A stretch of DNA of 64,000 nucleotides, taken from the NCBI RefSeq assembly GCF_018499875.1, contig NZ_JAHBAY010000012.1, forward strand, positions 186,001 through 250,000, read 5' to 3'. The notes under the pieces were generated by a model that worked only from the letters and a program-made list of their open reading frames with translations, ran no database searches and was not told the DNA's origin. Of this stretch, positions 9,138 to 30,326 are shown one piece after another. Numbering within the stretch: the stretch's first letter is position 1; the number at the start of each line of letters is the position of its first letter. Position numbers and translations under genes: made by a program. Source of the DNA: Kineosporia corallincola. GTDB lineage: Bacteria > Actinomycetota > Actinomycetes > Actinomycetales > Kineosporiaceae.

Positions 9138-9608
9138 ATGTCAGGCTCGGACATTCCGGACCTCTCCCCCGAGGGCTCCCCCAGGCGTCTCGTCATGCTG
9201 GTGGGTGTCGACGGGTCGGAGAGCTCGCTGCGTGCCCGCGCCTACGCCGTGGGCCTGGCCCGGCGTTCCGAGGCCTATCTGATCATGGTCTACGTGCGGC
9301 AGCTCAGCACCATGACGGCGTTCGCCCCCGGGCCGGGCACGGCCGCGATCGAGGAGGCCGGCGACGAGGTGGCGGCCGAGTTGCGCCGCGAGATGACGCT
9401 GCTGGCCGAGGAGCCCGGGCCGCCGCTCGACGCCGAGCTGATCGAGTGCACCGGCAGCCCGTTCCAGGCCCTCAACCAGATCGCCGCCGAGCGCCGCGCC
9501 GACGCCATCATCGTCGGCGCCTCCAAGCAGGCCGGGCACCGGTTCGTCGGGTCACTGGCCGTGCACCTGGTGCGCAACGCCGCCTGCCCGGTCACCGTCG
9601 TTCCCTGA
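9138..9608 (+). CDS. Universal stress protein (UspA family)
   Basis: 156 aa, a single Usp domain. VGVDGSESSLRA near the start is the usual nucleotide-side strand. VGASKQAGHRFVGSLAVHLVRNAACPVTVV is the C-terminal signature, though the second glycine of the ATP-binding GxxG pattern is a Lys here, so ATP binding is doubtful. Its 3' end overlaps the end of the converging mftD-like gene by 17 bp. Confidence 0.85.
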   Translation: MSGSDIPDLSPEGSPRRLVMLVGVDGSESSLRARAYAVGLARRSEAYLIMVYVRQLSTMTAFAPGPGTAAIEEAGDEVAAELRREMTLLAEEPGPPLDAELIECTGSPFQALNQIAAERRADAIIVGASKQAGHRFVGSLAVHLVRNAACPVTVVP

Positions 9609-10779
9609 AACCCGGCGGCACCACGAGGTCCGCCGGGCTCAGATCGGCCACCGACGCCACTCCCAGCCCGGTTAGCGCCGAGTCGATGCCGCCACGCAGG
9701 ACGTCGAGCACGTTCTCCACCCCGGCCTGCCCGTTCGCGGCCAGCCCCCAGAGCGGGGCGCGCCCGATCATCACCGCGCGGGCGCCCAGCGCCAGCGCCT
9801 TGACCACGTCGGACCCCCGGCGCACCCCGCCGTCCATGAGCACCTCGACCTGGTCACCGACGGCGTCGGCGACGGCGGGCAGGCTGCGGACCGCGGCGCG
9901 CTCGGTGTCCAGGTTGTTGCCGCCGTGGTTGGACACCGAGATCGCGGTGGCCCCGTGGTCGACGGCGCGCAGGGCGTCGTCCACCCGGGTGATTCCCTTG
10001 ATCATGAACGGCCCGTCCCACCGCTCGCGCAGCCAGCCCACGTCGTCCCAGCTCGGTGGCGGGGTGTTCTTCCAGGTGCCGTAGGCCTCGAAGAAGGTCG
10101 GCACGGGCCGGCCCGGTTCGGCCAGGTTCGGCACCGTCAGGGTGGGCAGCCGGCCCGCCCGCACCCAGTCCAGCAGCCAGGCCGGGCGGGTGATCACGGC
10201 GGGCGCGAACCGCACGGCGGTGGCAAGGTCGAGACGCAGCGGGACCCGCGGCGAGCCCCAGTCACGCCCTTCGGAGAACGACCAGTTCAGTGTGAGGATC
10301 AGGCCCGCCGCACCGGCCGCGCGAGCCCGGTCCAGGCCGGCCAGCACGTGCTCGCGTGACCCGGTCCAGCTGGTCTGGAAGAAGGTGACGGGATTGGCGC
10401 CGACGACCTCCTCGATCGGCCTGCTCGCGAACGAGCTCAGGCACATCGCGGTGCCGCGGGCCGCGGCGGCCCGGGCCACCGCCACCTCGCCCTCGGGGTG
10501 CACCGCCTGCACACCGGTCGGGGAGATCAGCACCGGCAGCGCCAGGTTTTGGCCCATCACCCGGACCCCGAGCCGCCGCTCGCGCGGCAGGTCGGCCACG
10601 TGCGGGGCGAAACCGATTTCACCGAAGGCGTTCTCGTTGTCGCTGGGGGTGAGGCCGCGCTCGGAGCCGGCCACGAGCGCCTTGAACACCGGCTCCGGCA
10701 GGCGCTTCTCCGCCCGGCGGCGCGCCTGCGCGACGCTCTCGAACCACGGGTTGCGCGCCCAGGGACGGAACGGGCCCAT
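9592..10779 (-). CDS. mftD: MftD paralogue with altered active-site positions
   Basis: 395 aa. It is an FMN-dependent alpha-hydroxy-acid-oxidase-fold protein very similar along its whole length to the second MftD of this locus. MftD converts the trimmed Val-Tyr-derived product into redox-active premycofactocin. Shared landmarks are SPTGVQAVHPEGE, the ISVSNHGGNNLD catalytic His region, MDGGVRRGSDVVKALALGARAVMIGR for flavin phosphate, and NGQAGVENVLDVLRGGID. Two positions differ: FFQTSW (Ser137) where the paralogue has FFQMYW (Tyr130), and TLNW (Asn165) where it has TTDW (Asp158). In glycolate-oxidase-type enzymes those positions are the catalytic Tyr and Asp. It may be a specialised, partner-binding or inactive copy. 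Confidence 0.88.
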   Translation of the reverse strand: MGPFRPWARNPWFESVAQARRRAEKRLPEPVFKALVAGSERGLTPSDNENAFGEIGFAPHVADLPRERRLGVRVMGQNLALPVLISPTGVQAVHPEGEVAVARAAAARGTAMCLSSFASRPIEEVVGANPVTFFQTSWTGSREHVLAGLDRARAAGAAGLILTLNWSFSEGRDWGSPRVPLRLDLATAVRFAPAVITRPAWLLDWVRAGRLPTLTVPNLAEPGRPVPTFFEAYGTWKNTPPPSWDDVGWLRERWDGPFMIKGITRVDDALRAVDHGATAISVSNHGGNNLDTERAAVRSLPAVADAVGDQVEVLMDGGVRRGSDVVKALALGARAVMIGRAPLWGLAANGQAGVENVLDVLRGGIDSALTGLGVASVADLSPADLVVPPGFRERR

Positions 10780-10863
10780 GACGGGTCACCTTCTTCCTCG
10801 CGAAGCGTGCGGGATCACACGCGGCCGGCTGCCCGCCGGTCCCCCGCACCCCTACCACGCGCA

Positions 10864-10890
10864 CTATATTGACACTACGTGCCAATATAG
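10864..10890. promoter_or_regulatory. Palindromic operator in the divergent mftD promoter region
   Basis: CTATATTGACA and TGCCAATATAG are 11-bp arms (10 of 11 match) around a 5-bp spacer. Read from the centre it is GACAC-TAC-GTGCC, the same core as the palindrome before mftA. Each arm holds a -10-like hexamer facing outwards: TATAGA on the plus strand at 10886-10891 and TATAGT on the minus strand at 10863-10868. A bound repressor could therefore cover both promoters. A TetR-type site, probably for MftR, is the simplest reading. Confidence 0.75.
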
Positions 10891-10969
10891 ATCCCCAGGT
10901 CGGCGGAAGGTCCCGGTCGAGCGGGACCGGCGGTTCCGCCAGACCTCTCGAAGAGGAGAGAACACACGT

Positions 10970-12163
10970 ATGGCCAACCCCTGGTTCGAGACGGTCGCCG
11001 AGGCGCAGCGACGGGCGAAGAAGCGGCTGCCGAAGTCGGTCTACATGGCCCTCGTGGCCGGCTCCGAGCGCGGCCTGACCGTCGACGACAACCTGAACGC
11101 CTTCGGTGAGCTGGGTTTCGCCCCGCACGTCGCCGGGCTGTCGCAGACCCGCGAGCTGAGCACCTCGGTGATGGGCCAGGACCTGGCGCTGCCGGTGATG
11201 ATCTCGCCCACCGGTGTGCAGGCGGTGCACCCCGAGGGCGAGGTGGCGGTGGCCCGGGCCGCCGCCAACCGCGGCATCACCATGGGCCTGAGCTCGTTCG
11301 CGAGCCGCTCGATCGAGGACGTCGCGGCCGTCAACGACAGGACCTTCTTCCAGATGTACTGGGTGGGCACCCGTGAGGTCCTGGTGCAGCGCATGGAGCG
11401 CGCCCGGGCCGCCGGGGCCAAGGGCCTGATCATGACCACCGACTGGTCGTTCTCGATGGGCCGCGACTGGGGCTCCCCGGAGATCCCGTCGAAGATCGAC
11501 CTGAAGACGGCGATCAGATTCGCCCCGGAGGTGCTGCGCCGGCCGAAGTGGCTGTACGAGTTCGGGAAGACCGGCAGCATCCCCGACCTGACCACGCCGA
11601 ACCTGGCCCCGCCGGACGGCGGCCCGGCGCCGACCTTCTTCGGCGCCTACGGCGAGTGGTCCGGCACCCCGCTGCCCACCTGGGACGACATCGCCTGGCT
11701 GCGCAAGGAGTGGGGCGGGCCGTTCATGCTCAAGGGGGTCATGCGGGTGGACGACGCCCTGCGCGCCCGGGACGCCGGGGTCACGGCGATCTCGGTGTCC
11801 AACCACGGCGGCAACAACCTGGACGGCACCCCGGCGCCGATCCGGGCCCTGCCCGCCATCGCCGAGGCGGTCGGCGACGACATCGAGGTGGTGCTCGACG
11901 GCGGCATCCGCCGCGGTTCCGACGTGGTCAAGGCGGTCGCCCTGGGCGCCCGCGCGGTGATGATCGGCCGCGCCTACCTGTGGGGCCTCGCGGCCAACGG
12001 GCAGGCCGGGGTGGAGAACGTCATCGACATCCTGCGCGGCGGCATCGACTCGGCGGTGCTCGGGCTGGGTCACTCGTCGATCCACGACCTGACCGCCGGC
12101 GACCTGATCGTGCCGGAGGGTTTCACCCGCTCGCTCGGTGCCGGGACCGTGAAACCGGCCTGA
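10970..12163 (+). CDS. mftD: Pre-mycofactocin synthase MftD (canonical copy)
   Basis: 397 aa. FMN enzyme that oxidatively deaminates the MftE product to make premycofactocin. It opens with NPWFETVAEAQRRAKKRLPK, as in known MftD proteins. Active-site positions of the family are intact: Tyr130 in FFQMYW, Asp158 in TTDW and His in SVSNHGG. The FMN-phosphate segment LDGGIRRGSDVVK and the end, GLGHSSIHDLTAGDLIVPEGFTR, are typical. The start is fixed by a strong AAGAGGAGAG site 10-19 bp upstream of the ATG. It is divergent from the paralogue over a 190-bp gap with a shared palindrome. Confidence 0.93.
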   Translation: MANPWFETVAEAQRRAKKRLPKSVYMALVAGSERGLTVDDNLNAFGELGFAPHVAGLSQTRELSTSVMGQDLALPVMISPTGVQAVHPEGEVAVARAAANRGITMGLSSFASRSIEDVAAVNDRTFFQMYWVGTREVLVQRMERARAAGAKGLIMTTDWSFSMGRDWGSPEIPSKIDLKTAIRFAPEVLRRPKWLYEFGKTGSIPDLTTPNLAPPDGGPAPTFFGAYGEWSGTPLPTWDDIAWLRKEWGGPFMLKGVMRVDDALRARDAGVTAISVSNHGGNNLDGTPAPIRALPAIAEAVGDDIEVVLDGGIRRGSDVVKAVALGARAVMIGRAYLWGLAANGQAGVENVIDILRGGIDSAVLGLGHSSIHDLTAGDLIVPEGFTRSLGAGTVKPA

Positions 12164-12182
12164 GCCTCCTCCCCCGAACCGC

Positions 12183-12217
12183 CCCCGGAAACCGTTGCCC
12201 GGCACCGGTTTCCGGGG
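12183..12217 (+). terminator. Hairpin after mftD
   Basis: CCCCGGAAACCG and CGGTTTCCGGGG are perfect 12-bp arms with an 11-nt loop, 20 bp past the mftD stop. No U-run follows, so it is a strong hairpin but an incomplete terminator. The rest of the 173-bp gap before the HSP90-like gene shows no other clear signal. Confidence 0.6.
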
Positions 12218-12336
12218 TCCCTCCAGGCCCGGGCAGCAGTGCGTGAGGACGCCGGTCCGCACGGTGACCGGATCCGGCCGGTTTCATCCCCCCGGCGGTT
12301 TCGGACAAACCCGCAACACCCCCTAGGCTTTCGCAG

Positions 12337-14226
12337 GTGCCTGACTCCCCTGACCGAACACCCCGGCCGTTCCAGGTCGACCTGCGGGGAATCGTCGACC
12401 TGCTCAGCCGGAGCATCTACTCCGGGCCGCAGGTGTACCTGCGCGAGCTCCTCCAGAACGGTGTCGACGCGATCACCGCGCGTGGGGCCCTGCCCGGCTC
12501 GCCCCCCGGCTCCATCCGGATCACCCCGGCCGCCGGTCAGGACGGCGAACTGGTCTTCACCGACAACGGGGTCGGCCTGACCGCGGCCGAGGTCGGCGAG
12601 CTGCTGGCCACGGTCGGCCGCAGCTCCAAGCGCGACGTGCTCGACCTGCCCCGCACCGACCGGCTCGGCCAGTTCGGCATCGGCCTGCTCAGCTGCTTCA
12701 TGGTCAGCGACGACATCCGGGTGCTGTCCCGGGCGGCCGGCGGCGAGCCCCCGGTGGAGTGGATCGGCAGCGCCGACGGCACCTTCACCGTGCGCGAGCT
12801 GGACGACGACGAGGCCCTGCCGGAGATCGGCACCCAGGTGCGGCTGCGGCCCCGGGCCGGCGACGGCGAGCTCACCTCGCCCACCGCCGTGCTCGAGCTG
12901 GCCACCCGCTACGGCGCCTACCTGCCGGTGCCGGTGCGGGTCGAGATGCCCGGCGGCGAGCAGACGGTCAGCTCGGAACCGCTCTTCGCGCAGCCGTTCA
13001 CGGCCCCCTCGCCGGAGCTCATGGCCCTCGGCAAGGAACTGCTCGGCGCCGAGCCGCTCGACGCCGTGCCGCTGCACGTGCCCGGCACCGGCACCCGCGG
13101 CACCGCCTTCGTGCTGCCGTTCGCCCCCTCCCCCGGCGCCCGCCAGGCCACCCGGGTGTACCTGCGCGGCATGCTGCTGTCCGAGCGGATCGACGACCTG
13201 CTGCCCGAGTGGGCGTTCTTCGCCCGCTGCGTGGTCGACACCACCGGGCTGCGGCCCACCGCCAGCCGCGAGTCGCTGATCCAGGACGACGCGCTGGAGG
13301 AGACCCGGGCCGAGCTCGGGTCCGCCCTGCGCCGCTGGGTCGCCACCATGGCCAACCGCGACCCGGTGCGGCTGAGCAGCTTCCTCGGTGTGCACCACCT
13401 GGCCCTGCGGGCCCTGGTGCTGCACGACGACGAGCTGGCCGGGTTCATCGTGCCCTGGCTGCCGATCGAGACCAGCAACGGCCAGACCACCTACCGCGAG
13501 CTGCTGCGCGGCGGCGCCCCGCTGCGCTTCGCCGAGACCGTGGACGAGTTCCGGCAGATCGCCGCGATCGCCCGGCCGGACAGCCCGGTGATCAACGGCG
13601 GCTACGTGTACGACGCCGACATCCTGCGCCGCCTGCCCGACCTGATCCCCGGCACGGTCGTCGAGACCGTCACGATCACCGACGAACTGGCCTCGCTCGA
13701 CGTGCCGCCGCTGGCCGAGCGCCCGGCCGCGCAGCGTCTCCAGGCCCGGGCCGAGGAGGCCCTGAAAGATCTCGACTGCACGGTCCTCGTGCGGTCGTTC
13801 GCTCCCGACACCCTCCCCGCACTGCACATCGCCGACGCCGGGGTCCTGCGCCGGCTCCAGCGGCAGCGGGCCAAGGAGGCCGGGAGCGGCATGTGGGCGT
13901 CGATCCTGCAACGCATCGACGACGCCCAGAACCAGCAGGACGCACAGCACCAGCAGAACGGGGAGGGTGAGACCGTCGGCGCCGCCGGTCAGCTCTGCCT
14001 GAACTGGCGCAACCGGCTGGTGCGGGCACTCGCCGACAGCGACGACGAGCTGCTGTTGGCGCGTACCGTACGGGTGGTCCACGTGCAGGCCCTGCTGGCT
14101 GCACACCGCCCCCTCCGCGCCGTTGAGCGGGCCTCGCTCACCGACGCACTGACCGACATCGTGCACCTGAGTGCCGGGCTGGGCGCAGACCTCGGCGAAC
14201 TGCCGGACGCCCCCGGGGAGAACTGA
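12337..14226 (+). CDS. HSP90-family (HtpG-like) GHKL ATPase
   Basis: 629 aa, close to HtpG length. The Bergerat ATP fold is complete: ELLQNGVDAI at 37-46, DNGVG at 76-80 and GQFGIG at 111-116 followed by LLSCFMVSDD. The middle domain is recognisable by VYLRGMLLSERIDDLLPEWAFFARCVVDTTGL and ASRESLIQ. A Gln/Asn-rich linker (DDAQNQQDAQHQQNGEGE) near residue 530 precedes a divergent C-terminal helical region. It is not the standard HtpG; the divergence suggests a dedicated chaperone. It starts at GTG and heads a four-gene run with TPR proteins (5-bp gap to the next ATG), which are typical HSP90 partners. Confidence 0.87.
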   Translation: MPDSPDRTPRPFQVDLRGIVDLLSRSIYSGPQVYLRELLQNGVDAITARGALPGSPPGSIRITPAAGQDGELVFTDNGVGLTAAEVGELLATVGRSSKRDVLDLPRTDRLGQFGIGLLSCFMVSDDIRVLSRAAGGEPPVEWIGSADGTFTVRELDDDEALPEIGTQVRLRPRAGDGELTSPTAVLELATRYGAYLPVPVRVEMPGGEQTVSSEPLFAQPFTAPSPELMALGKELLGAEPLDAVPLHVPGTGTRGTAFVLPFAPSPGARQATRVYLRGMLLSERIDDLLPEWAFFARCVVDTTGLRPTASRESLIQDDALEETRAELGSALRRWVATMANRDPVRLSSFLGVHHLALRALVLHDDELAGFIVPWLPIETSNGQTTYRELLRGGAPLRFAETVDEFRQIAAIARPDSPVINGGYVYDADILRRLPDLIPGTVVETVTITDELASLDVPPLAERPAAQRLQARAEEALKDLDCTVLVRSFAPDTLPALHIADAGVLRRLQRQRAKEAGSGMWASILQRIDDAQNQQDAQHQQNGEGETVGAAGQLCLNWRNRLVRALADSDDELLLARTVRVVHVQALLAAHRPLRAVERASLTDALTDIVHLSAGLGADLGELPDAPGEN

Positions 14227-14231
14227 GCGAG

Positions 14232-15347
14232 ATGAACACCACCCAGAGCCGGACCGACGGCAAGTCCTCCCGGTCCATCGACACGGACGTCCTGCTGGAC
14301 CGCGTGGAATGCCTCCTCGTGCTCGAGGAGTTCGGTCTGGCCGGGCAGCTGCTCGACCTGATCGCCACCCGGCGCATGCTGCTGAAGACGACGTTCACCG
14401 ACGAGCAGACCCGGCGCCTGGCCGCGGCCCGGGCCCGGCGGGACACCCCGCCGGAGTACGACGTGGCCCTCGAGCCGGTGGTCGCCTCCGGCGACGACGC
14501 GGACCCGCTGAAGATCGTCGACGAGCAGCTCGCCACCGACGGCTGGAACCGCGGCCAGGCCGCGGCGCTGCTGCGGGCCCGGGCCTGGATCCTGGCCGGC
14601 GGCGGGCAGCTCGAAGAGATGCTGCGCACCGCCGAGGAGGCCCTGAAGATCGGCCTCGACCTGGGCGCCCACGGGTTCTGCGTGCAGCTGTCGCGCACCG
14701 CCGCGGCGGCCACGCTCGACCTGCACCGCTACCAGGAGGCCGCCGACCTGTACCGGCTGGCCCTGACCGAGGCCGCGGCCGGCGAGCCGATCGTCATCGT
14801 CGAGCCGCCCCGCCAGCCGCACGGCGACCTGCTCGGCCTGATCGACTCGCTGCACCTGCTCGGCCAGGCCCGCGGCCGGGCCGGCGACCTGAAGGGCGCC
14901 GAGGAGGTCATGCGCGAGGCGCTCCAGCTGGCGTCCACCCCGCCGGCCTCCGAGCACCCGGCCGTCAGCAACGCCCGGGCCGAGGTGCTGCACGCCCTGG
15001 CCCTGCTGCTCAGCGGTCAGGGCGCCGAGCGGCTCGACGAGGCACTGGAGTTCGCCGGGGCCTCGGCCGACACCTACTCCGGCATCAGCGCCAAGGTCGA
15101 GGCCGGCCGCGCCCTGGCCCTGGCCGCCCGGCTGCTCACCTCCGCCGACCGGCCCGCCGACGCCGTGCCCTACCTGGAGAAGGCAACGGCCGTGCTGGCC
15201 GCCGAGCCCGAGCACCTGGTCGGCTGCCTCGACATCCTGGCCGCCACCTACGCCCAGCTCGGCCGCGCCGACGACGCCAAGGCGGCCGAGGAACTGTCCG
15301 AGCAGATGCGTGCCCTGGTCGAGGCGGCGACCCCGGCCCAGGACTGA
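14232..15347 (+). CDS. TPR-repeat protein, 371 aa, HSP90-linked
   Basis: No signal peptide or catalytic motif. The protein is nearly all paired Ala/Leu-rich helices of TPR type (for example LLGQARGRAGDLKGAEEVMREALQLA and YLEKATAVLAAEPEHLVGCLDILAATYAQLGRADDAKAAE). The C-terminal third resembles the C-terminal third of the two large TPR proteins that follow. It starts five bases after the HSP90-like stop and ends four bases before the next ATG, so all three are probably one transcript. It is likely a scaffold or adaptor; the client is unknown. Confidence 0.8.
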   Translation: MNTTQSRTDGKSSRSIDTDVLLDRVECLLVLEEFGLAGQLLDLIATRRMLLKTTFTDEQTRRLAAARARRDTPPEYDVALEPVVASGDDADPLKIVDEQLATDGWNRGQAAALLRARAWILAGGGQLEEMLRTAEEALKIGLDLGAHGFCVQLSRTAAAATLDLHRYQEAADLYRLALTEAAAGEPIVIVEPPRQPHGDLLGLIDSLHLLGQARGRAGDLKGAEEVMREALQLASTPPASEHPAVSNARAEVLHALALLLSGQGAERLDEALEFAGASADTYSGISAKVEAGRALALAARLLTSADRPADAVPYLEKATAVLAAEPEHLVGCLDILAATYAQLGRADDAKAAEELSEQMRALVEAATPAQD

Positions 15348-15351
15348 GGTC

Positions 15352-17721: not shown

Positions 17722-17769
17722 TGATTACCTAGACGCGTCACGACGGACCAAACAGGGAGCAACACAGCG

Positions 17770-20331: not shown

Positions 20332-21821
20332 GGGTTTTTCGTCACCGAGCCGAGCAGCCGCCACTTCCATGAGGGCCGCACCGCGCGCAGGCTGCGGGCC
20401 CGCAGGCCGCCGGCCCAGACCCCGGCGCCGTAGGCCGCGTCGTCCATCAGCACGGCGGCGCTCCAGCGCACCGGGTCGATGCCGGGCCGCACCCGCAGCC
20501 ACTCGCGCAGCGGTGAGGCGGTCAGCAGGGCGAGCACGGCCAGGGCCCGGCCGGGGCGCCGGCGGCCGGGGACCGCGGCCGCGGCGAGGGCCAGCGGGAG
20601 GGCGAACTGCGAGGTCCAGCGGCCGGTGCCGAAGAACGTCTCGCGCACGCCGATCGCCAGCGGGCGCAGCAGGTCGTCGCCCTGGGCGCCGGCCTTGCGC
20701 AGGGCGGCCCGGGCGTCGGCGTAGCCGGCGGCGAAGGTGGCGGCGGCCAGCAGCGGGCGCCGGGCCAGCAGCGCCGCGACCGTGGAGGCGGGCGCGGCGA
20801 CCAGCACCAGCGGCGCCACCTTGCCGGGGTGCCGTTCCTCCAGCAGCGCGGCCGACGTGCCGTAGGCGAAGCGGCGGCGCAGCAGGGCCGGCCAGCCGGC
20901 TGGTTCCTCGTGGCCGATCTCGACGGTCGGGTCGTAGCGCACCCGCCAGCCCGCCCGCAGCAGCCGCCAGACCAGGTCGACGTCTTCGCCGTAGCGCAGG
21001 TCCTCGTCGAAACCGGCCGGTCCGGAAAGGTCTCCGAGGGCCCGGCGGCGCAGGATGAGCGCGGCGGTGGGCAGGTAGGAGACCCGGCTCAGCGGGGCCA
21101 CCCGGGCCGGCAGACCGCCCAGGTCGAGCACCGGCCGGGCCTGGGAGAAGCGCCCGGCGAACGTGCCGGTGTCGGTACCGCCGGCCACGATCCGGGGGGC
21201 CACGGCGGCCAGCAGTGGGTCGTCGAAATGTCCCACCAGGTCGTCGATCCAGCCCGGTGGGGGCAGGCAGTCGCTGTCCAGGAACGCGACCAGCGGGGTG
21301 GTGACCGAGCGCAGGGCCAGGTTGCGGGCCGGGCCCGGGCCGCCGTTGACGCCGCGGGCCACCAGCCGGGCGCCGTGCCGCGCCGCGACCGCCGCCACCT
21401 GCGCCGGGTCGAGGGACGCGTCGTCCACGACCACCACCTCGGCCACCGACCTCTGCCCGGCCGGGGTCAGGCCGGTCAGGCAGCGGTCGAGCTCGGCGGC
21501 CCGGTCGCGCACCGGGACGACCACGGTGACCACGCCGTGCCGGGACGGCCGGCCCTCGTCGTCCTCAGGCAGTCCCTGACGACCGGGATGCACCAGGCCG
21601 GCGTCGGAGAACCGGCGGGCCAGGGCCGCGGCCGCCGGGGTGCGCACCACGCCGGAGCGCAGCTGCGAGAACGCTTCCTGCCCGGCCGGATTGAGGCGGA
21701 ACAGGCGGGCGGGCGATCCACCGAACACGGTTCCGTCGGGTCTGATCACGGTCTCCGGGTCGAGCTCGACCGGCATGCCCACCGGGAGCCCTTCGGCCCG
21801 TTCGTTCCCCGTCGTCGTCAC
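20328..21821 (-). CDS. mftF: Mycofactocin glycosyltransferase MftF
   Basis: 497 aa. Family-2 glycosyltransferase that adds a glucose chain to mycofactocin. The N-terminal 80 residues (GMPVELDPETVIRPDGTVF, RLFRLNPAGQEAF) match the lead-in domain found in MftF. The GT2 core is VVVPVRDRAAELDRCLTGL, VVVDDASLDP and the metal-binding FLDSDCLPPPGW. A second acid site is ALGDLSGPAGFDEDLRYGEDVDLVWRL. The C-terminal part has hydrophobic helices (for example LVLVAAPASTVAALLA) that may touch the membrane. It is co-directional with mftE, 21 bp downstream of that gene. Confidence 0.9.
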   Translation of the reverse strand: MTTTGNERAEGLPVGMPVELDPETVIRPDGTVFGGSPARLFRLNPAGQEAFSQLRSGVVRTPAAAALARRFSDAGLVHPGRQGLPEDDEGRPSRHGVVTVVVPVRDRAAELDRCLTGLTPAGQRSVAEVVVVDDASLDPAQVAAVAARHGARLVARGVNGGPGPARNLALRSVTTPLVAFLDSDCLPPPGWIDDLVGHFDDPLLAAVAPRIVAGGTDTGTFAGRFSQARPVLDLGGLPARVAPLSRVSYLPTAALILRRRALGDLSGPAGFDEDLRYGEDVDLVWRLLRAGWRVRYDPTVEIGHEEPAGWPALLRRRFAYGTSAALLEERHPGKVAPLVLVAAPASTVAALLARRPLLAAATFAAGYADARAALRKAGAQGDDLLRPLAIGVRETFFGTGRWTSQFALPLALAAAAVPGRRRPGRALAVLALLTASPLREWLRVRPGIDPVRWSAAVLMDDAAYGAGVWAGGLRARSLRAVRPSWKWRLLGSVTKNP

Positions 21822-21842
21822 CGTGCCACCTTAGGCGAGCGG

Positions 21843-22553
21843 TCAGCCGGAGCCGAGCCTGCCGTACGGCGGGTCCCAGGCCAGCACCTGGGTGTGCAGG
21901 CCGTCGACGAACCGCTGCACCAGCCGGGCGCCCTCCTCGGCCCCGGCCCCCTCCGGGTCGCCGAGCACCCCGTTCGGGCTGACCGCGCGCACCCCGGAGG
22001 CCCGCAGCTCGTCGATGAGTTCCCGCACCGGCGTGGTGTTGCCGCGCTCGGCGAGCTCCAGGCGCACGCGCTCGGGGTGCAGCGCGAGCTGGAGCGAGGT
22101 CTCGGTCCGGCCCGCGTGCGCGTCGCCGTCCCAGGTCGCCATCCACAGCAGCACGTCACGGGACTCGGCGCGCAGGCGGCGCACCGCCCGCACCGCCGGC
22201 ACCGCGTTGCCGCCGTGGCCGTTCACGAAGATCTGCCGCCGGTAGGTCTCCCCCGCCGAGCGGCCCAGCTCCAGCAGCATCAGCTCCAGCGCCTCCTGCC
22301 CGATCGACAGGGTGCCCGGGAACCCGGCGTGCTCGCCGCTGGAGCCGTAGCCGATCGCCGGGGCGACCGCGACCTGCGGCATCCGCTCGGCCAGGCCGCG
22401 GGCCACGGCCACCGCGACGTCACTGTCGGTGCCCAGCGGCAGGTGCGCGCCGTGCTGCTCGGTGGAGCCGACGGGGATCGCGACGATCCCGTCCGCCGCG
22501 GCGTGCGCGGCGATCTGCGGGCTGGTCATCGCGGCCAGGTCAAGGTAAGCCAC
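21843..22553 (-). CDS. mftE: Mycofactocin system creatininase-family peptidase MftE
   Basis: 236 aa. It cuts the modified MftA after the MftC step and releases the Val-Tyr-derived end product. The metal-dependent creatininase fold shows VGSTEQHGAHLPLGTDS (Glu, His and Asp ligands), GYGSSGEHAGFPGT and FVNGHGGNAVPA. All expected ligands are present. Membership of the MftE group rather than generic creatininase is inferred from mftF directly downstream and the rest of the locus. Confidence 0.88.
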   Translation of the reverse strand: MAYLDLAAMTSPQIAAHAAADGIVAIPVGSTEQHGAHLPLGTDSDVAVAVARGLAERMPQVAVAPAIGYGSSGEHAGFPGTLSIGQEALELMLLELGRSAGETYRRQIFVNGHGGNAVPAVRAVRRLRAESRDVLLWMATWDGDAHAGRTETSLQLALHPERVRLELAERGNTTPVRELIDELRASGVRAVSPNGVLGDPEGAGAEEGARLVQRFVDGLHTQVLAWDPPYGRLGSG

Positions 22554-22599
22554 CGGACGACCTTACGCCGCGTGATCTTCCGGTCCTCCAGCGGGTTGC

Positions 22600-23487
22600 T
22601 CAGGACCGGAAGATGTCCGACAGCGCAGGCGCCACCTGCCGGTGGTCGCGGATCGGGAACATCCGTCCCCGCCCGGCCGCCGCCATCTCCCGGGCCAGTT
22701 CCTCGTCCTTCTCGCCCGAGGCGTCGAGCAGCACGTCCAGCCGCGGCAGCAGCGCCGCCGGGCCGCGCGGGTCCGGCCCGGCGTTGTGCACGCAGTCCGA
22801 CAGCAGCAGCACCCGGGCCTCCGGGTTGGGACGACGGGAGAGCTCGGCCGCCGCCAGCTGGAGCGGGAACCCGACGTTGGTCAGGCCCCGGGCCGGCAGC
22901 TTCAGCAGGTCGTCCAGCAGGCTCTGCGCCCGGAACGGCCGGCCCATCGGCAGCAGGATCGAGCAGTCCGACCAGAACGCGATCACGCCCACGTCGTCGG
23001 CCGCCAGCTCGCCGGCCAGCGCCCCGACCGTGGCCGCGGCCGTGCGGATCCGCTCGCCCCGCATCGACCCGGACACGTCGACCACCAGCTCCACGGACCG
23101 CCGGCGCCGCACCCGCTCGCGCACCACGATGTCGTCGTCGTCCGGAAACGGCTTCTCCGCCAGCACTTCCAGCGTGCGGTCCAGGTCGATGTCGTCGGCA
23201 CCCTCCCGGTAGCGCACGCTGACCAGCTCGCCCGCGCCGCGCCGGGCACCCCGCCCGCGCGGCGGGCGGTGCAGCGACAGCCGCGCGGCGATGAGCCGCG
23301 CCCGGGCCCTCACGTCGTCCTCAGCCGGATCGCCGTCACCCACGTCCAGTGGGACGGTGGCACCGGCGTCGTCGGTCTGCCCCGGACCGCCCGAGCCCCG
23401 CACCGAGGCCTTCGCCGCGGCCCCGGTGCCCCGCCCCAGGGCGGTCAGCACCGGGCCGCCGTCGCTGTCCGAGATGCTGAACACCAT
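22600..23487 (-). CDS. VWA-domain protein (CoxE-like), partner of MoxR ATPase
   Basis: 295 aa. A low-complexity acidic N-terminus of about 60 residues is followed by a von Willebrand A domain with a complete MIDAS: DVSGS at 137-141, a conserved Thr in GLTNVG and Asp in LLLSDCVHN. Such proteins work with MoxR-type AAA ATPases, which remodel or metallate target enzymes. In-frame sequence upstream of this ATG looks coding-like (Arg/Lys/Gly-rich, about 30 codons) but contains no ATG, GTG or TTG, so the ATG is used. It is 99 bp downstream of the ATPase gene. Confidence 0.82.
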   Translation of the reverse strand: MVFSISDSDGGPVLTALGRGTGAAAKASVRGSGGPGQTDDAGATVPLDVGDGDPAEDDVRARARLIAARLSLHRPPRGRGARRGAGELVSVRYREGADDIDLDRTLEVLAEKPFPDDDDIVVRERVRRRRSVELVVDVSGSMRGERIRTAAATVGALAGELAADDVGVIAFWSDCSILLPMGRPFRAQSLLDDLLKLPARGLTNVGFPLQLAAAELSRRPNPEARVLLLSDCVHNAGPDPRGPAALLPRLDVLLDASGEKDEELAREMAAAGRGRMFPIRDHRQVAPALSDIFRS

Positions 23488-23586
23488 CGGCTCGGCCCGC
23501 AGGTTTTTGGGTTTACGGCGCAGAGGACGCCCGTTGCGGCCCCGGCGGCCGGGTTTCGTGACCGGCGAGTCGGCCTCGGCCTCTCT

Positions 23587-24528
23587 TCAACCCGGCTGGG
23601 CGGACGCCGGGCTCAGCACGAACCGGTCCTCCCAGATCTCGCGGATCACCCGTTCCGGGGTGGTGTCGGCCACCTCGTCCAGGTGCACCCGTCCCGACAG
23701 CGACACCGTCATCGCGTCGAGAACCAGCTGCGGATAAGCACTTTCCGGGTCGAGCCGGTCGCTGGAGTCGGCCGCCTCGGACACCCCGCGGATCGCCGCC
23801 AGCTGGTTCGCCACCAGCACCACGTCGATCGCGCCGCGCACGCTGCTGCCCTGCCGCAGGTGCGGGTGCCGGCGGGTGGCCCGGTTCACCCAGACCGCGT
23901 CGCGCACCAGCAGATCGCCCAGCTTGCCACCGTTCTCGGTGCGCAGGCCGACGATCCCGATCTCCGCGGACTCGTCCTGGTAGTCCACCGACAGACGGCA
24001 CAGCCGGTCGGTGATCGACGTGGAGAGCCGGGTGGTGCCGACATTGTCGTAGGGGTTCATCGAGGCGATCAGCCGGAACGTCGGCGAGGCCTGCACCTGA
24101 CCCGCCCGGGGCACCGCGATCCGCCGCTCGGCGAGCGCCGCCAGCAGCGTGTTCAGGGTGTCGTCGGGGGCCCGGTTGAACTCCTCCAGGTAGAGGAACC
24201 CACCCTGGCGCATCGCCTCCAGCAGCGGGCCGGGCACGAAATTGGCTTCGGAGTAGTCCTCTTTCAGCACCCGCGCCGGGTTGTGGTGGCCGACCAGCTT
24301 CGCCGGGGTCAGGTCGGCGTTGCCCTCGACGTAGAACAGCGGGATGCCCCACTCGTCGGCGATCGCGCGCAGCAGGGTGGTCTTGCCGGTGCCCGGGGGG
24401 CCCTCCAGCACCAGGTCCCGGCCGGCGGCCACGGCGGACAGGACCAGTTCGAGCTCGTGCTCGCGGCCGACCAGGTGGGTCGCGACCCGGTTGCGGGTCA
24501 GTGCCACGTCAGGAGGTGTGGAGGTCAC
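23587..24528 (-). CDS. MoxR-family AAA+ ATPase
   Basis: 313 aa. Walker A GPPGTGKT at 43-50 and Walker B FLYLEEFNRA at 111-120. Sensor-1-like SMNPYDNVGTTRLS and a Sensor-2 Arg region (HLRQGSSVRGAIDVV) follow. With the downstream VWA protein it forms the common MoxR/VWA pair, which acts as a chaperone in maturation of metalloenzymes or dehydrogenases. Lying between mycofactocin genes, it may activate a mycofactocin-dependent alcohol dehydrogenase encoded elsewhere; that is inference. Confidence 0.87.
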   Translation of the reverse strand: MTSTPPDVALTRNRVATHLVGREHELELVLSAVAAGRDLVLEGPPGTGKTTLLRAIADEWGIPLFYVEGNADLTPAKLVGHHNPARVLKEDYSEANFVPGPLLEAMRQGGFLYLEEFNRAPDDTLNTLLAALAERRIAVPRAGQVQASPTFRLIASMNPYDNVGTTRLSTSITDRLCRLSVDYQDESAEIGIVGLRTENGGKLGDLLVRDAVWVNRATRRHPHLRQGSSVRGAIDVVLVANQLAAIRGVSEAADSSDRLDPESAYPQLVLDAMTVSLSGRVHLDEVADTTPERVIREIWEDRFVLSPASAQPG

Positions 24529-24612
24529 GTGTGGTTGTCCTCAATGCCAGAGTTTGCGTGGGGGCACCATTGGATCAGAACAACGGTGGACGCCGTGGGC
24601 GGGCCCCCCGGG

Positions 24613-25050
24613 TCAGAGCTGGGTGGCGCCGGCGTCCACGGTCATCGCCAGGGCGGTCACGTACCGGGACTCGTCACTGGCCAGGAACAGCACGGCGTTC
24701 GACTGGTCCTCGGGCTGGGTGGCGGTGACGGGGTACATGTTGCCGAGCATCACCCCCGGCCCCGGATTGGCCTCCAGCGCCGGGCCGAAGGCGCCGCCCA
24801 TCGCGCCCATCGGGTCTCGACGCCGGTCGGGTGCAGGCTGTTGACGCGGATGTGGTGCTGCGCGAGCTCGGCGGCGAAGGTGCGGGCCAGGCCGGTGACG
24901 GCGTGCTTGCCGGCCACGTACGGGGTGAGGAAGGGCAGACCGACCAGGTCGGCGACCGAGCTGGTCAGGGCGATCGAGCCGCCTCCGCCCCGGATCAGGT
25001 GCGGCGCCGTGGCCCGGACCGTGTTCCAGGTGCCGGTGATGTTCATGTCG
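24613..25050 (-). pseudogene. Broken mycofactocin-type SDR dehydrogenase
   Basis: Remnant of a short-chain dehydrogenase. The surviving text begins at LDMNITGTWNTVRATAPHLI, so the N-terminal NAD-binding half is gone. The active-site region SSVADLVGLPFLTPYVAGKHAVTG keeps Tyr-x3-Lys. After NSLHPTGVET the frame shifts near 24812; deletion of one base (ACCCCG to ACCCG) would restore PMGAMGG, and the rest (GNMYPVTATQPEDQSNAVLFLASDESRYVTA) continues in the other frame to a normal end. The style of the C-terminal half matches mycofactocin-coupled SDRs. The truncation point abuts the terminator of mftC. Confidence 0.85.
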
Positions 25051-25051
25051 A

Positions 25052-25085
25052 GACGCGCGGCACCCCGGGAGGGGTGCCGCGCGTC
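25052..25085 (-). terminator. Terminator-like hairpin after mftC
   Basis: A 15-bp perfect stem (GACGCGCGGCACCCC with its complement) and a GGGA loop, nine bases past the mftC stop. No U-tract. It sits exactly between mftC and the SDR remnant. Confidence 0.7.
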
Positions 25086-25093
25086 GTGCCGGT

Positions 25094-26413
25094 TCAGGCC
25101 CGCGAACCGGTCTCCAGGCCGGCCGTGGGACTGAAACCGGCGAGCGGGTTCTCGTCGCACCCGCGGGCCGGTGGGGCGGAGACCACCCCGATGGCCGGGC
25201 GCACGCCGAGAGTCAGCGCGACCGGCTTCTTCTTGTTCTTCTGGCTGCGCAGCGGGTTCTTGTGCGAGTGGTCGCCGCTCGGCTTCGGGGTGACCCCGTC
25301 CACCGCTTCCAGCAGCGATTCACCGTAGCCGCGAACGCATTCCGGGTCGGGGCCGTCGAGCGGCAGGCCGGTGAAGAACTTGGCCGCCATGCAGCCGCCC
25401 CGGCAGGAGTCGAAGAACTGGCAGGACGAGCACGCCCCGCCGCTCTGCGGCTGCCGCAGTTCCTGGAAGAGCTCCGAGGTCTGCCAGACGCCCTTGAAAC
25501 CTCCCTGGTCGCGCACGTTCCCGGCGAGGAACTCGTCGTGGATCGCGAACGGGCAGGCGTACACGTCGCCGACCGGGTCGATCAGGCAGACCACCCGGCC
25601 CGCGCCACACAGGTTCAGGCCGGGCAGGGAGTCACCGAAAGCCGCCAGGTGGAAGAAGGAGTCGCCGGTGAGGACCTCCTCGCCGTTGGCGACCAGCCAG
25701 TCGTACAGCTGCTTCTGCTGGGGGGCGAGCAGGTGCAGCTCGTCCCAGACGTCGGCGCCGCGGCCCGAGGGACGCAGCCGGGTCAGGCGCAGCTGGGCTC
25801 CGTACCGGTCGGCGATCGCCTTGAACTCGTCGAGCTGGCCGACGTTCTGGCGGGTGACCACGACCGACAGCTTGAAGCCGGTGAAACCGGCGTCCTTCAT
25901 GTTCTGCATGGCCCGCATGGCGGTGTCGTAACTGCCTGCGCCACGCACGTAGTCGTTGACCTCGGCGGTCGCGCCGTCGAGCGAGATCTGTACGTCCACG
26001 TAGTCGGACTTCGCCAGTCGTTCGGCGACCTCCCGGTTGATGCGCACACCGTTGGTCGAGAACTTCACGCCCACATGGTGTTCCGTGGCGTAGTCGACCA
26101 GGTGCCAGAAGTCCGGTCGCACGGTCGGCTCGCCGCCGCCGATGTTGACGTAGAAGACCTGCATCCGCTCCAGCTCGTCGATGACGGCTTCGGCCTCGGC
26201 GGTGGTCAGCTCGCGCGGGTCACGCCGTCCGGAACTCGAAAGGCAGTGCACACAGGCGAGATTGCAGGCGTAGGTGAGTTCCCAGGTCAGGCAGATCGGC
26301 GCGTCCAGCCCGAGGGCGAACTTGTCGACGAGCCGGCCCGGGGAGGGGGTCGGGGGCTTACTGGGTTTCTGGGTGAGACCGGCCGGGGTGGCGGGTTCGA
26401 GCACAGCTGTCAT
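25094..26413 (-). CDS. mftC: Mycofactocin maturase MftC (radical SAM/SPASM)
   Basis: 439 aa. Radical SAM enzyme that decarboxylates the C-terminal Tyr of MftA and crosslinks it to the preceding Val. The CxxxCxxC cluster is Cys50, Cys54 and Cys57 in TYACNLACVHC; GGGEPTVRPDF is the GGE motif. The SPASM part has CGAGRVVCLIDPVGDVYACPF and CSSCQFFDSCRGGC for auxiliary Fe-S clusters. The C-terminus has a Lys-rich stretch (LRSQKNKKKP) followed by CDENPLAGF. The start overlaps the mftB stop as ATGA, so translation is coupled. MftB would deliver MftA. Confidence 0.94.
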   Translation of the reverse strand: MTAVLEPATPAGLTQKPSKPPTPSPGRLVDKFALGLDAPICLTWELTYACNLACVHCLSSSGRRDPRELTTAEAEAVIDELERMQVFYVNIGGGEPTVRPDFWHLVDYATEHHVGVKFSTNGVRINREVAERLAKSDYVDVQISLDGATAEVNDYVRGAGSYDTAMRAMQNMKDAGFTGFKLSVVVTRQNVGQLDEFKAIADRYGAQLRLTRLRPSGRGADVWDELHLLAPQQKQLYDWLVANGEEVLTGDSFFHLAAFGDSLPGLNLCGAGRVVCLIDPVGDVYACPFAIHDEFLAGNVRDQGGFKGVWQTSELFQELRQPQSGGACSSCQFFDSCRGGCMAAKFFTGLPLDGPDPECVRGYGESLLEAVDGVTPKPSGDHSHKNPLRSQKNKKKPVALTLGVRPAIGVVSAPPARGCDENPLAGFSPTAGLETGSRA

Positions 26414-26751
26414 GCAGGCTCCTCCGTGGACGGCGTCGTCCGGCGGCGGATCAGATCCCCCGCGGCGAGCGACCCGAGCGCCCGGGCGAGCACCGGGAGC
26501 TGGGAAGGGTCGACCCCCGCGCCCAGACACGCGGTGCGCGCGTCCGGGGCGGTGGCCAGACCATTGACGACGTCCAGTAGTTGACGGGTCTTCAGGAACG
26601 ACAGGCGCCGGTTCCCGAAGTGGTACATCAGGGCTCCGAACGGTTCGGGCCGCACGGACACGCTGGGGTGCAGCTCCCATGCGGCGCCGAGGTCGAAGTC
26701 CCCCACCGGTGCCCTGGGTGGCACCGACATCCGGTTCGTCTGCGTCGTCAC
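26410..26751 (-). CDS. mftB: Mycofactocin precursor chaperone MftB
   Basis: 113 aa from the GTG. PqqD-like RiPP recognition element that binds the MftA leader and presents it to MftC. FDLGAAWELHPSVSVRPEPFGALMYHFGNRRLSFLKTRQLLDVV is the typical beta-strand/helix layout of MftB. A later ATG (MSVPPRA, 26730) is an alternative start, but the GTG has a GAGG upstream and follows mftA by 13 bp. The 3' end overlaps mftC by four bases. Confidence 0.9.
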   Translation of the reverse strand: MTTQTNRMSVPPRAPVGDFDLGAAWELHPSVSVRPEPFGALMYHFGNRRLSFLKTRQLLDVVNGLATAPDARTACLGAGVDPSQLPVLARALGSLAAGDLIRRRTTPSTEEPA

Positions 26752-26764
26752 GGCCTCGCGCCGA

Positions 26765-26875
26765 TCAGTAGACGCCGCACATCCCGTCGATGGAGACCTC
26801 TTCGACCAGCAGTTCCTCGACGGCGTCGGTGCCTGCGGTCTCGACGGCGTCCTGGGGAGCGTTCGTGTTGTCCAT
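26765..26875 (-). CDS. mftA: Mycofactocin precursor peptide MftA
   Basis: 36 aa. The ORF begins MDNTNAPQDAVETAG and ends EEVSIDGMCGVY. The C-terminal IDGMCGVY is the hallmark of MftA, with the final Val-Tyr becoming the cofactor. The acidic leader with ELLVEEV is the part bound by MftB. The ATG is 32 bp into the transcript if the promoter at 26917-26945 is right. A purine-poor spacer with GGAAGAGAGG (26883-26892) upstream serves as ribosome site. Confidence 0.96.
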   Translation of the reverse strand: MDNTNAPQDAVETAGTDAVEELLVEEVSIDGMCGVY

Positions 26876-26916
26876 CGAAACAACCTCTCTTCCACGGTGA
26901 ACAGCGTTGCGGGGAG

Positions 26917-26945
26917 TTTATGACACTCCGTGTCGTAAGCGTCAA
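26917..26945 (-). promoter_or_regulatory. Predicted mftA promoter
   Basis: On the minus strand TTGACG (26945-26940) and CATAAA (26922-26917) are separated by 17 bp. The spacer and the start of the -10 are occupied by a palindrome, a normal repressor arrangement. Confidence 0.6.
26918..26938. promoter_or_regulatory. Palindromic operator before mftA (MftR site candidate)
   Basis: TTATGACAC-TCC-GTGTCGTAA: 9-bp arms, 8 of 9 matching, 3-bp spacer. The core TGACACTCCGTGTC corresponds to TGACACTACGTGCC between the mftD genes. It lies inside the predicted mftA promoter and 170 bp from the mftR start. Confidence 0.78.
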
Positions 26946-27107
26946 GAGTGGTCATCGGCACGTCGCCGGACGGAACTGATCGGCCGATGAGGGGTGAACG
27001 GCGAGTACCGGCCGGGAATCTCCGGCGGTGCCGGACGTGAGCACACCGGTGGTTGAATGACCCCGGCATGCCGGTCCGGCGTGCCCGGACCAGGGAAGGG
27101 CTCGGCG

Positions 27108-27767
27108 ATGACGGCGGGGTCAGCAGAACCGGCGACCCCGGGAGCCCGGGGCGGGCGCAAGGCCGCCCCGCGCGGCGAGAACCGCAGCGGACGGCCCCGC
27201 GCGACCAGCCGGCGCACGCTGGAGCGCATCGCCCTGGAGCTGTTCTCCGAGCAGGGCTTCGAGGCCACCACGGTGGAGCAGATCGCCGACCGGGCCGGGG
27301 TCAGCCGCCGCACCTTCTTCCGCTACTTCGACACCAAGGCCGACGTGCTCTGGTCGGAGTTCGACGCCGAGGTGGAGACGCTGCACGAGCTGCTCGCCCA
27401 GGCCCCGGCCGACCAGCCGCTCACCGAGGCGATCCGGCAGGCCGTGCTGACCGCCAACCACTACGGGGTGGACGACATCGCCGGCCTGCACACCCGGATG
27501 TCGGTGGTGGCCCACGTCCCGGCCCTGAACGCCGCCTCCACCGCGCACTACGACAACTGGGCCGGTGCCCTGGCCGAGTTCGCCGCGCGCCGCCTGGGCC
27601 TGCGCCCCGACGACCTGATCCCCCAGGCGATCGGGTTCAGCGCCCTGGGGGTCTGCCGGGCCGCGTTCGACCAGTGGGTGGCCCGGCGCGACGGCGACCT
27701 GATCAGCTACCTCGACATCGCGCTCAGCGCCTGGAAGACCGGGTTCAGCGGGTTCGAGGAGCGATAG
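27108..27767 (+). CDS. mftR: Mycofactocin-system TetR-family regulator MftR
   Basis: 219 aa. The TetR helix-turn-helix reads TTVEQIADRAGVSRRTFFRYFDTKADVLW. The C-terminal ligand domain carries WTR-like MSVVAHVPALNAASTAHYDNW. It is divergent from mftABC, as is usual for mftR. The start chosen has GGGAAGGG 8-15 bp upstream; an in-frame ATG 17 codons earlier (27057) has no ribosome site. It probably represses mftA and the mftD pair and responds to a small effector; in mycobacteria long-chain acyl-CoA has been reported for MftR. Confidence 0.87.
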   Translation: MTAGSAEPATPGARGGRKAAPRGENRSGRPRATSRRTLERIALELFSEQGFEATTVEQIADRAGVSRRTFFRYFDTKADVLWSEFDAEVETLHELLAQAPADQPLTEAIRQAVLTANHYGVDDIAGLHTRMSVVAHVPALNAASTAHYDNWAGALAEFAARRLGLRPDDLIPQAIGFSALGVCRAAFDQWVARRDGDLISYLDIALSAWKTGFSGFEER

Positions 27768-29733: not shown

Positions 29734-30326
29734 ACAGCTCGGACACCGCCCTGTGGTGGGCGCGCGCCCGCATGCTCGGGCCCGCCCGGCACGAGATCGG
29801 CACCCCCGCGCCCGACGGCTTCCTGCGCCTGCTGGAACCGGAGTGGTCCGACGGCCGCGGCCAGGTCTGGCTGCTGCCCGCGCACCCGGGCACGGCCGGG
29901 CCCTGGGTGCTCGACGAGATGGGGCTGAACGGGCCCACGGTGGAGCAGCCGAACGACACCGCGCGCATGCTGGCCGCCGTCGTCCGTTGTTGCTGGGCCG
30001 ACGTCGACGGGCCGATCTGGCCCGGCCGGGACGCCGACTGGGACGCCGTGATGTCGGTGTACCGCACCTTCGGCGACCGGGAGGAATCGGTACTGCACCG
30101 GGCCGCGACCGGTGCGGTGCGGCGTCTGCACAGCGGTGGCTGGGTGCTGTGGGACGAGTCCCGCAAGGTCGTGCGCCTCGGCCCGCGCTGCGGCACCTGG
30201 GCCGGCCCCGACCTGACCGTGCTGCGCGAACTGTGGCGCGGCATCCAGGCGCCCGAGGAACCGGACGAGGCCCCCGAGGAACCGGACGAGGCCCTCGACG
30301 AACCTGACGAGGAGGGTGTCGAATGA
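29730..30326 (+). CDS. Condensin-like operon gene 2, 198 aa
   Basis: The GTG start overlaps the preceding stop (GTGA). Residues 1-175 look globular, with Trp-rich segments (WWARARML, GGWVLWDESRKVV), possibly a winged-helix fold. The C-terminus is an acidic Pro/Glu/Asp repeat (APEEPDEAPEEPDEALDEPDEE). No catalytic motif. In a MukE/JetB-type operon this would be one of the small winged-helix subunits. Function is inferred from context only. Confidence 0.55.
   Translation: MNSSDTALWWARARMLGPARHEIGTPAPDGFLRLLEPEWSDGRGQVWLLPAHPGTAGPWVLDEMGLNGPTVEQPNDTARMLAAVVRCCWADVDGPIWPGRDADWDAVMSVYRTFGDREESVLHRAATGAVRRLHSGGWVLWDESRKVVRLGPRCGTWAGPDLTVLRELWRGIQAPEEPDEAPEEPDEALDEPDEEGVE

Follow-up and report, generated by a model that had tools for sequence, protein, structure and literature searches.

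Gene Content and Organization of the Locus

The analyzed stretch of DNA, referred to here as the window, comprises 64,000 nucleotides (positions 186001–250000 of contig 12 in an 8.2 Mb genome) and carries a mycofactocin locus together with genes for an HSP90-family ATPase, three TPR proteins, a MoxR-type AAA+ ATPase and a VWA-domain protein. Genes were called by codon-position GC, and families were assigned by scans with NCBIfam (curated cut-offs) and Pfam. An earlier note on this DNA had reported mftA, B, C, D, E, F and R with the HSP90, three TPR, MoxR and VWA genes between them; the family scans agreed, and all of these genes, with mftD in two divergent copies, were found where it had placed them. 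The locus consists of the following features:

9592–10779, minus strand: mftD1, divergent second pre-mycofactocin synthase paralogue (TIGR03966, 647 bits, cut-off 471; residues and tree)
10970–12163, plus strand: mftD2, ordinary pre-mycofactocin synthase (TIGR03966, 706 bits; tree)
12337–14226, plus strand: HSP90-family ATPase, very probably part of an inserted module and no mycofactocin component (NF010683, 695 bits, cut-off 455; distribution and tree)
14232–15347, plus strand: TPR1, starting 5 bp past HSP90 (Pfam TPR_12, TPR_8)
15310–17721, plus strand: TPR2, overlapping TPR1 (Pfam TPR_12)
17770–20331, plus strand: TPR3, convergent with mftF, 4 bp overlap (Pfam TPR_12, TPR_8)
20328–21821, minus strand: mftF, glycosyltransferase (TIGR03965, 361 bits, cut-off 280)
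21843–22553, minus strand: mftE, peptidase (TIGR03964, 286 bits, cut-off 172)
22600–23487, minus strand: VWA protein of 295 aa, putative MoxR partner (Pfam VWA_2; complete metal ion-dependent adhesion site, MIDAS; Foldseek match to the NorQD complex)
23587–24528, minus strand: MoxR-type AAA+ ATPase (AAA_5, bpMoxR and GvpN similarity; NorQ/CbbQ similarity; in the clade found behind mycofactocin-coupled short-chain dehydrogenases/reductases, SDRs)
about 24613–25051, minus strand: remnant of an SDR gene of the mycofactocin-coupled kind, lacking the 5' part and frameshifted (C-terminal piece TIGR03971, 44.5 bits, below cut-off)
25094–26413, minus strand: mftC, radical SAM maturase (TIGR03962, 658 bits, cut-off 265)
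26410–26751, minus strand: mftB, peptide chaperone (named by position and because tblastn matched it in 81 of the 84 mft loci examined outside the genus, no hidden Markov model)
26765–26875, minus strand: mftA, precursor peptide ending in SIDGMCGVY (sequence)
27057–27767, plus strand: mftR, TetR-type regulator (TIGR03968, 238 bits, cut-off 225)

The locus was recognized as a mycofactocin locus by mftC, mftD, mftE, mftF and mftR, all above the curated cut-offs, and by an MftA ending in IDGxCGVY, the terminal motif given for MftA in excerpts of PMC5264612. The genes on the minus strand are ordered mftA, mftB, mftC, broken SDR, MoxR, VWA, mftE and mftF, with mftR divergent upstream. Gaps of 13 bp, 99 bp, 46 bp and 21 bp separate mftA from mftB, MoxR from VWA, VWA from mftE and mftE from mftF, respectively, and mftB overlaps mftC by 4 bp. 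On the plus strand, mftD2 is followed by HSP90 after 173 bp, TPR1 after 5 bp, the overlapping TPR2, and TPR3. The SDR remnant between mftC and MoxR was absent from the earlier note. Since MoxR and VWA are codirectional with the mft genes (minus strand) and HSP90/TPR run opposite (plus strand), the former pair belongs to the mft direction whereas the latter module does not.

The shared genes appeared in identical order in all six genomes of the genus compared (the window's and five others), with small differences only: zero to two SDR genes precede MoxR, and in G003 one additional gene separates VWA from mftE. The five other genomes showed 88–90% identity to the window for HSP90, 88–90% for MoxR and 81–87% for VWA. 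Outside the genus, 84 mft loci were examined (80 of the 112 other mft-positive genomes of the class sample and four nearer relatives). Five of them, from the g77/f38 genomes (L106, L108, L109, L111 and L117), have MoxR after mftC and one or more SDRs; the four that extend further continue with VWA, mftE and mftF, and three show mftD2 convergent with mftF, which is the layout of the window minus HSP90/TPR. Four more of the 84 (L158, L166, L095 and L096) carry a MoxR of 48–50% identity near mft genes. The reported distance of about 13 kb between mftD and mftC proved accurate (12.9 kb between mftD2 and mftC). The split was rejected as a special trait of the locus: these genes lie about 11 kb apart in G007, which has no HSP90 there, and mftD is beyond mftF in all three g77/f38 loci showing mftD.

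Altogether, we are fairly confident that an ordinary mycofactocin cluster has here received two unrelated additions, a MoxR–VWA machine acting on dehydrogenases and an HSP90/TPR module gained in this genus. The notion of one joint chaperone island was dropped, as strand, distribution and phylogeny divide HSP90/TPR from MoxR–VWA.

The MoxR–VWA Pair Accompanies Mycofactocin Genes and Dehydrogenases

The MoxR protein carries GPPGTGKT, an acidic motif and an MNP region, which we take to be Walker A, Walker B and the sensor region, respectively; all are invariant or nearly so in the ten sequences of alignment A1. The MIDAS of the VWA protein is complete (D137, S139, S141, T203 and D231) and present in 67 of 67 aligned sequences. 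Among the solved bacterial chains, MoxR was closest to NorQ (72.8 bits) and CbbQ (69.6), others reaching at most 55; the eukaryotic midasins, with their many AAA modules, scored higher (175–182). When the Foldseek matches of the predicted VWA model (pLDDT 79.5; residues 1–43 below 50) were ranked by E-value, the first was chain G of NorQD (E 1.7e-9, TM 0.44), presumably NorD. Assignment of MoxR to the NCBIfam MadB family was rejected (51 bits against a 475-bit cut-off).

The class sample of 394 genomes was searched with profile A1, built on the ten MoxR sequences, all from loci near mft genes, which biased the search to such copies (threshold E up to 1e-45; six candidates per genome scored in full). 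MoxR of this type was found in 20 genomes of 11 genera and 8 families, and all 20 were mftC-positive (Fisher p 4e-12, a crude estimate of chance, as are those that follow). The association had a p of about 2e-6 at the genus level by simple product, and after removal of the five genomes that fed the profile, 15 of 15 MoxR genomes were mft-positive (p 2e-9). The remaining 93 of the 113 mft genomes lacked MoxR of the A1 type; MoxR–VWA is therefore accessory.

The genomic neighborhood points to the enzymes that the pair may serve. Of the 26 MoxR copies in the class sample, 18 (14 of 21 without the profile copies) were preceded, on the same strand and by no more than 170 bp, by an over-cut-off gene of TIGR03971 (SDR) or TIGR03989 (alcohol dehydrogenase, ADH). 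Such a neighbor was missing from all 13 ordinary MoxR genes taken from five genomes (p 3e-5; 2e-4 without the profile copies); seven of them had such a dehydrogenase on the contig, never closer than 197 kb, and six had none. This comparison relied on up to 77 SDR candidates per genome, on mechanical gene calls in the relatives and on 21 dehydrogenase places entered by hand, which had been chosen by eye on MoxR-bearing contigs near MoxR.

A second set, the best 80 of 337 loci by MoxR similarity to A1, none of them in the profile, came from Microbacteriaceae, Geodermatophilaceae, Rhodococcus, Pseudonocardia, Streptomyces, Kitasatospora, Acidimicrobiia and others. A same-strand dehydrogenase lay within 450 bp upstream of MoxR in 60 of the 80 (19 SDR, 41 ADH), and the ADH overlapping MoxR in L261 raised the count to 61 (19 SDR, 42 ADH). 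TIGR03971 was matched by all 19 SDRs at E up to 1e-60, and TIGR03989 by the 42 ADHs at E up to 1e-100; E thresholds rather than curated cut-offs decided these assignments. VWA followed MoxR in 76 of the 80 loci; in the other four (L247, L256, L289 and L298) the contig ends about 350 bases or less from MoxR. L166 and 8 of the 80 loci have the MoxR and VWA domains joined in a single open frame, which supports a physical partnership. mftC was present in 27 of the 80 stretches and any mft gene in 34.

Upstream genes were scanned in only a minority of the 19 loci lacking a recognized dehydrogenase directly upstream, three of which (L239, L245 and L287) have fewer than 700 bases there. L238 has an MftR-like regulator (below cut-off) upstream of MoxR and, further out, an SDR on the opposite strand. 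In L241 the gene immediately before the MoxR–VWA open frame encodes a flavoprotein that is lactate-dehydrogenase-like and has sub-cut-off similarity to MftD. A transporter-like gene (L236), a GGDEF/EAL gene (L274) and genes without a family (L233 and L253) were met upstream elsewhere; the closest scanned gene in L242 is not adjacent.

In a quick-type tree of 83 MoxR sequences, some of them with long rows (L290 among them), one switch of partner type sufficed to explain the 63 copies with an SDR or ADH upstream. The node separating the SDR side from the ADH side had 99% SH-aLRT support, and the MoxR of the window fell on the SDR side. One change of partner is predicted by a client-specific machine, and not by chance adjacency or by a role in biosynthesis. 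Altogether, the link of MoxR–VWA to mycofactocin-dependent dehydrogenases is well supported.

Within the genus, G002, G003 and G004 have an intact SDR next to MoxR, G001 has it split in two, the window retains a remnant and G005 lacks it; judged by these sequences, the adjacent SDR is decaying. MoxR and VWA are intact throughout the genus and under purifying selection (omega 0.15–0.27). The pair may act in trans in the window's genome, because one over-cut-off TIGR03971 SDR and one TIGR03989 ADH are encoded elsewhere in it.

Term searches of the original mycofactocin survey (PMC3023750) for ATPase, AAA and von Willebrand found none of them; in the MftG paper (PMC11778925), AAA and von Willebrand were likewise missing, and ATPase was mentioned once in an unrelated context. 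In open-access full text, mycofactocin with MoxR gave only a gene table, and mycofactocin with VWA only a proteome table and a figure legend, nothing relevant in either case. No description of a role of MoxR–VWA with mycofactocin enzymes was thus found in the open-access literature; the papers on mycofactocin and chaperones were mostly left unopened, and one could exist.

Two observations of another kind were made among the 80 loci. L223, L224 and L259 contain five or six tandem mycofactocin-type SDR genes between mftC and MoxR–VWA, and L275 and L277 are metagenome-assembled genome records titled Bifidobacterium breve that carry mycofactocin genes, a species label that looks doubtful.

The HSP90/TPR Module Is Very Probably a Bystander

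The earlier note had linked HSP90/TPR to mft genes by position, and proposed comparing the gene order near mftD and mftF in relatives and the phylogenetic profiles. The placement was constant in all six genomes of the genus, between mftF and mftD2, and HSP90 was found within an mft locus in this genus only: none of the 84 other mft loci, several of them ended by contig edges, gave an HSP90 or TPR match. In the class sample, HSP90 above cut-off occurred in 46 genomes, mftC in 113 and both in 8 of the 394, where 13.2 would be expected; the deviation leans to avoidance (Fisher p 0.08). Of these 8, only the window's own genome had both on one contig. Outside the genus, 43 HSP90 loci were inspected (36 of the 52 over-cut-off places beyond the window's genome and seven nearer relatives). 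No match for mftC, mftD, mftE or mftF was present in any of them, and in 42 of the 43 (e.g., L183–L212; the exception was L209) a large TPR gene directly followed HSP90. The module was thus met in genomes that lack mft genes, apart from such genes where both occur, and at no constant position. These are the signs that the earlier note had named as showing chance adjacency, and the proposed tie is not supported.

In the tree of 38 HSP90 sequences, the six copies of the genus joined five copies of family f19 (support 100/99), and the remaining copies from the window's own family f1 were placed elsewhere. This grouping with f19 and not with f1 indicates horizontal acquisition, and the module was probably acquired in this way in the window's genus. 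The g77/f38 loci match the window in layout except that the module is missing, and its insertion between mftF and mftD2 is the most economical explanation. HSP90 evolves under purifying selection (omega 0.18–0.26); TPR2 was the fastest-evolving of 11 genes compared (54–66% identity, omega 0.63–0.95). The C-terminus of HSP90, as inspected in the sequence, lacks the MEEVD tail, which we take to be the dock for TPR proteins in eukaryotic Hsp90.

The alternative, that HSP90/TPR functions in the mycofactocin biology of this genus, e.g., in folding MftD or the dehydrogenases, could draw on the fixed placement in 6/6 genomes, on the purifying selection of HSP90 and on its start 173 bp past mftD2 on the same strand. 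We consider it very unlikely in view of the 43 outside loci, none with mft genes and nearly all with a TPR gene of their own, the want of positive co-occurrence with mftC and the empty count among the 84 other mft loci. HSP90/TPR is very probably an autonomous module, a bystander rather than a mycofactocin component, and setting it aside disposes of a false lead.

No paper pairing mycofactocin with HSP90 was found in open-access full text, and the one match on bacterial Hsp90 with TPR that was looked into was unrelated; a term search for HSP90 in PMC7159879 and PMC8195603 found none. Anti-phage defense was also considered for HSP90/TPR and MoxR/VWA and rejected: PADLOC gave weak partial matches of at most 33 bits for HSP90 and MoxR and none for TPR1–3 or VWA. 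The NF010683-type bacterial HSP90 with its TPR gene is a candidate Hsp90 with a dedicated TPR partner and merits a study of its own.

The Two MftD Proteins and Neighboring Genes

mftD1 was found in all six genomes of the genus and formed its own clade apart from mftD2, with a lower identity within the genus (78–81% vs. 86–96%). Position 137 is S in all six MftD1 proteins vs. Y in 69 of 70 other MftDs, and position 165 is N vs. D in 70 of 70. The replaced Y and D are presumably the substrate-binding Tyr and the catalytic-His-positioning Asp of the glycolate oxidase family. If so, MftD1 would be altered or inactive; alternatively, it may be a partner of MftD2. In G001, the whole-genome search reported one TGA in mftD1, yet the 383 aa matched by tblastn translate without a stop.

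Beyond mftR, four consecutive genes at 28489–34197 encode proteins of 414, 223, 251 and 1040 aa with 72–91% identity within the genus. NCBIfam gave no match for them and Pfam none above cut-off, only weak similarity of the 251 aa protein to MarR; nor did PADLOC match the proteins of 414 and 1040 aa.

Proposed Role of MoxR–VWA

The earlier note had suggested that the chaperone-type systems could serve cofactor-dependent dehydrogenases or the MftD pair. For the dehydrogenases this is well supported in the case of MoxR–VWA (mft genes in 20/20 genomes of the class sample; a dehydrogenase ahead of MoxR in 61/80 loci) and not supported for HSP90/TPR, and nothing beyond position in one genus spoke for service to the MftD pair. 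We propose that MoxR–VWA is probably a dedicated AAA+/VWA machine acting on mycofactocin-dependent nicotinoprotein dehydrogenases, remodeling of these enzymes being suggested because of the analogy with NorQD. MoxR would form a ring, and the VWA protein would dock in or on it and grip the dehydrogenase via the MIDAS metal. ATP hydrolysis would then open the dehydrogenase, and the buried NAD would be loaded, reset or exchanged. The putative clients belong to two families, one of them zinc-binding, and their common trait is the trapped NAD, found in the ADHs as well, together with mycofactocin; NAD handling is thus a better guess than metal insertion. Excerpts of PMC5264612 describe the NAD of TIGR03971 SDRs as buried and non-exchangeable, and excerpts of PMC3023750 give both TIGR03971 and TIGR03989 as exclusive to mycofactocin species. 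As a specific role we tentatively put forward, as one possibility, that the pair loads, resets or repairs this non-exchangeable NAD, with two sister lineages specialized for the two dehydrogenase families.

Several observations weigh against the proposed machine. Most mycofactocin dehydrogenases manage without the pair, as the 93 mft genomes lacking it show, an mft gene was within 10 kb in only 34 of the 80 loci, and 19 of the 80 loci, like 8 of the 26 class copies, had no recognized dehydrogenase directly upstream. The adjacent SDR is broken or absent in the window and two sister genomes, where action in trans would be required. The TM-score between VWA and NorQD is modest (0.44–0.48), and other VWA domains were equal or better by this measure. 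Nine crystal structures of mycobacterial TIGR03971 SDRs contain bound NAD, according to excerpts of PMC5264612; if the host lacked MoxR–VWA, NAD loading does not always depend on the pair.

Other functions of the pair were weighed against the same data. SDRs are not metal enzymes, about a third of the partnered copies (19/61) follow SDRs, and the MoxR copies partnered with SDRs form a large lineage of their own on the tree and no small offshoot. It is therefore unlikely that MoxR–VWA inserts or checks the dehydrogenase metal in a NorQ/NorD-like manner, with the SDR as a secondary or recruited client, even though NorQ and CbbQ are the closest solved bacterial relatives by sequence and the NorQD complex by fold E-value, NorQD drives metal insertion (excerpts of PMC13036017) and TIGR03989 is a clade within the zinc-binding dehydrogenases (excerpts of PMC3023750). 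The pair could instead resemble CbbQ/CbbO and rescue dead-end dehydrogenases with trapped NADH or bound product rather than mature new ones. This reading, which we hold to be somewhat doubtful, would agree with the place of CbbQ among the closest solved relatives and with the non-exchangeable NAD of the SDRs (excerpts of PMC5264612), a stuck state of which could not be cleared by exchange; sequence data cannot tell it from NAD loading.

Assistance in mycofactocin biosynthesis or delivery, not directed at the dehydrogenases, was suggested by the position of the pair between mftC and mftE in the window's genus and in the four far-reaching g77/f38 loci, and by the 34 named loci with an mft gene within 10 kb. 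The dehydrogenase neighbor is retained even where mft genes are not near, the MoxR tree tracks the dehydrogenase type, and 93 of 113 mft genomes do without the pair, which renders such a function highly improbable. A machine dedicated to the buried NAD of these dehydrogenases, if true, would give the MoxR ATPase family a new class of client and mycofactocin biology a missing step. Mycofactocin-dependent dehydrogenases can be numerous in a genome, sixteen TIGR03971 SDRs being among the top Rhodococcus jostii matches in excerpts of PMC3023750, and MoxR–VWA is a concrete candidate for their maturation or rescue factor.

Comparison with Known Systems

Every core gene of the described mycofactocin cluster (mftA–F and mftR), whose redox partners are TIGR03971 and TIGR03989 enzymes, is present in the window, and MoxR–VWA mostly follows members of these two families. 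The difference is in MoxR and VWA, which a term search did not find among the parts described in PMC3023750 and PMC11778925. The actinobacterial NF010683 HSP90 and its TPR partner form a gene pair common to 42 of the 43 other loci, but the window has three TPR genes and has them inside an mft locus.

MoxR–VWA appears to be a MoxR/VWA system of the NorQ/CbbQ type not earlier described for mycofactocin enzymes. We did not file it as NorQD or CbbQO; the neighbors found were TIGR03971/TIGR03989 dehydrogenases and mft genes, with no name search made for nor or rubisco genes. It shares with the rubisco activase CbbQ/CbbO a related MoxR ATPase and a VWA partner, but the client is unrelated and inhibitor removal is without evidence here. 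In NorQD, according to excerpts of PMC13036017, a finger of the VWA protein enters the ring pore and the ATP-driven action enables metal insertion; activation of the client requires the MIDAS of NorD, the presumed client-binding site (excerpts of PMC9976466). In sequence, no solved bacterial chain is nearer to MoxR than NorQ, both systems are adjacent gene pairs, NorQD is the first VWA match by E-value, and the MIDAS motif DxSxS-T-D is shared (excerpts of PMC9976466). The two differ in that the VWA protein of the window is short (295 aa), whereas NorD has a mass of 70 kDa and carries an N-terminal domain (excerpts of PMC9976466), and in the client, proposed here to be a nicotinoprotein dehydrogenase.

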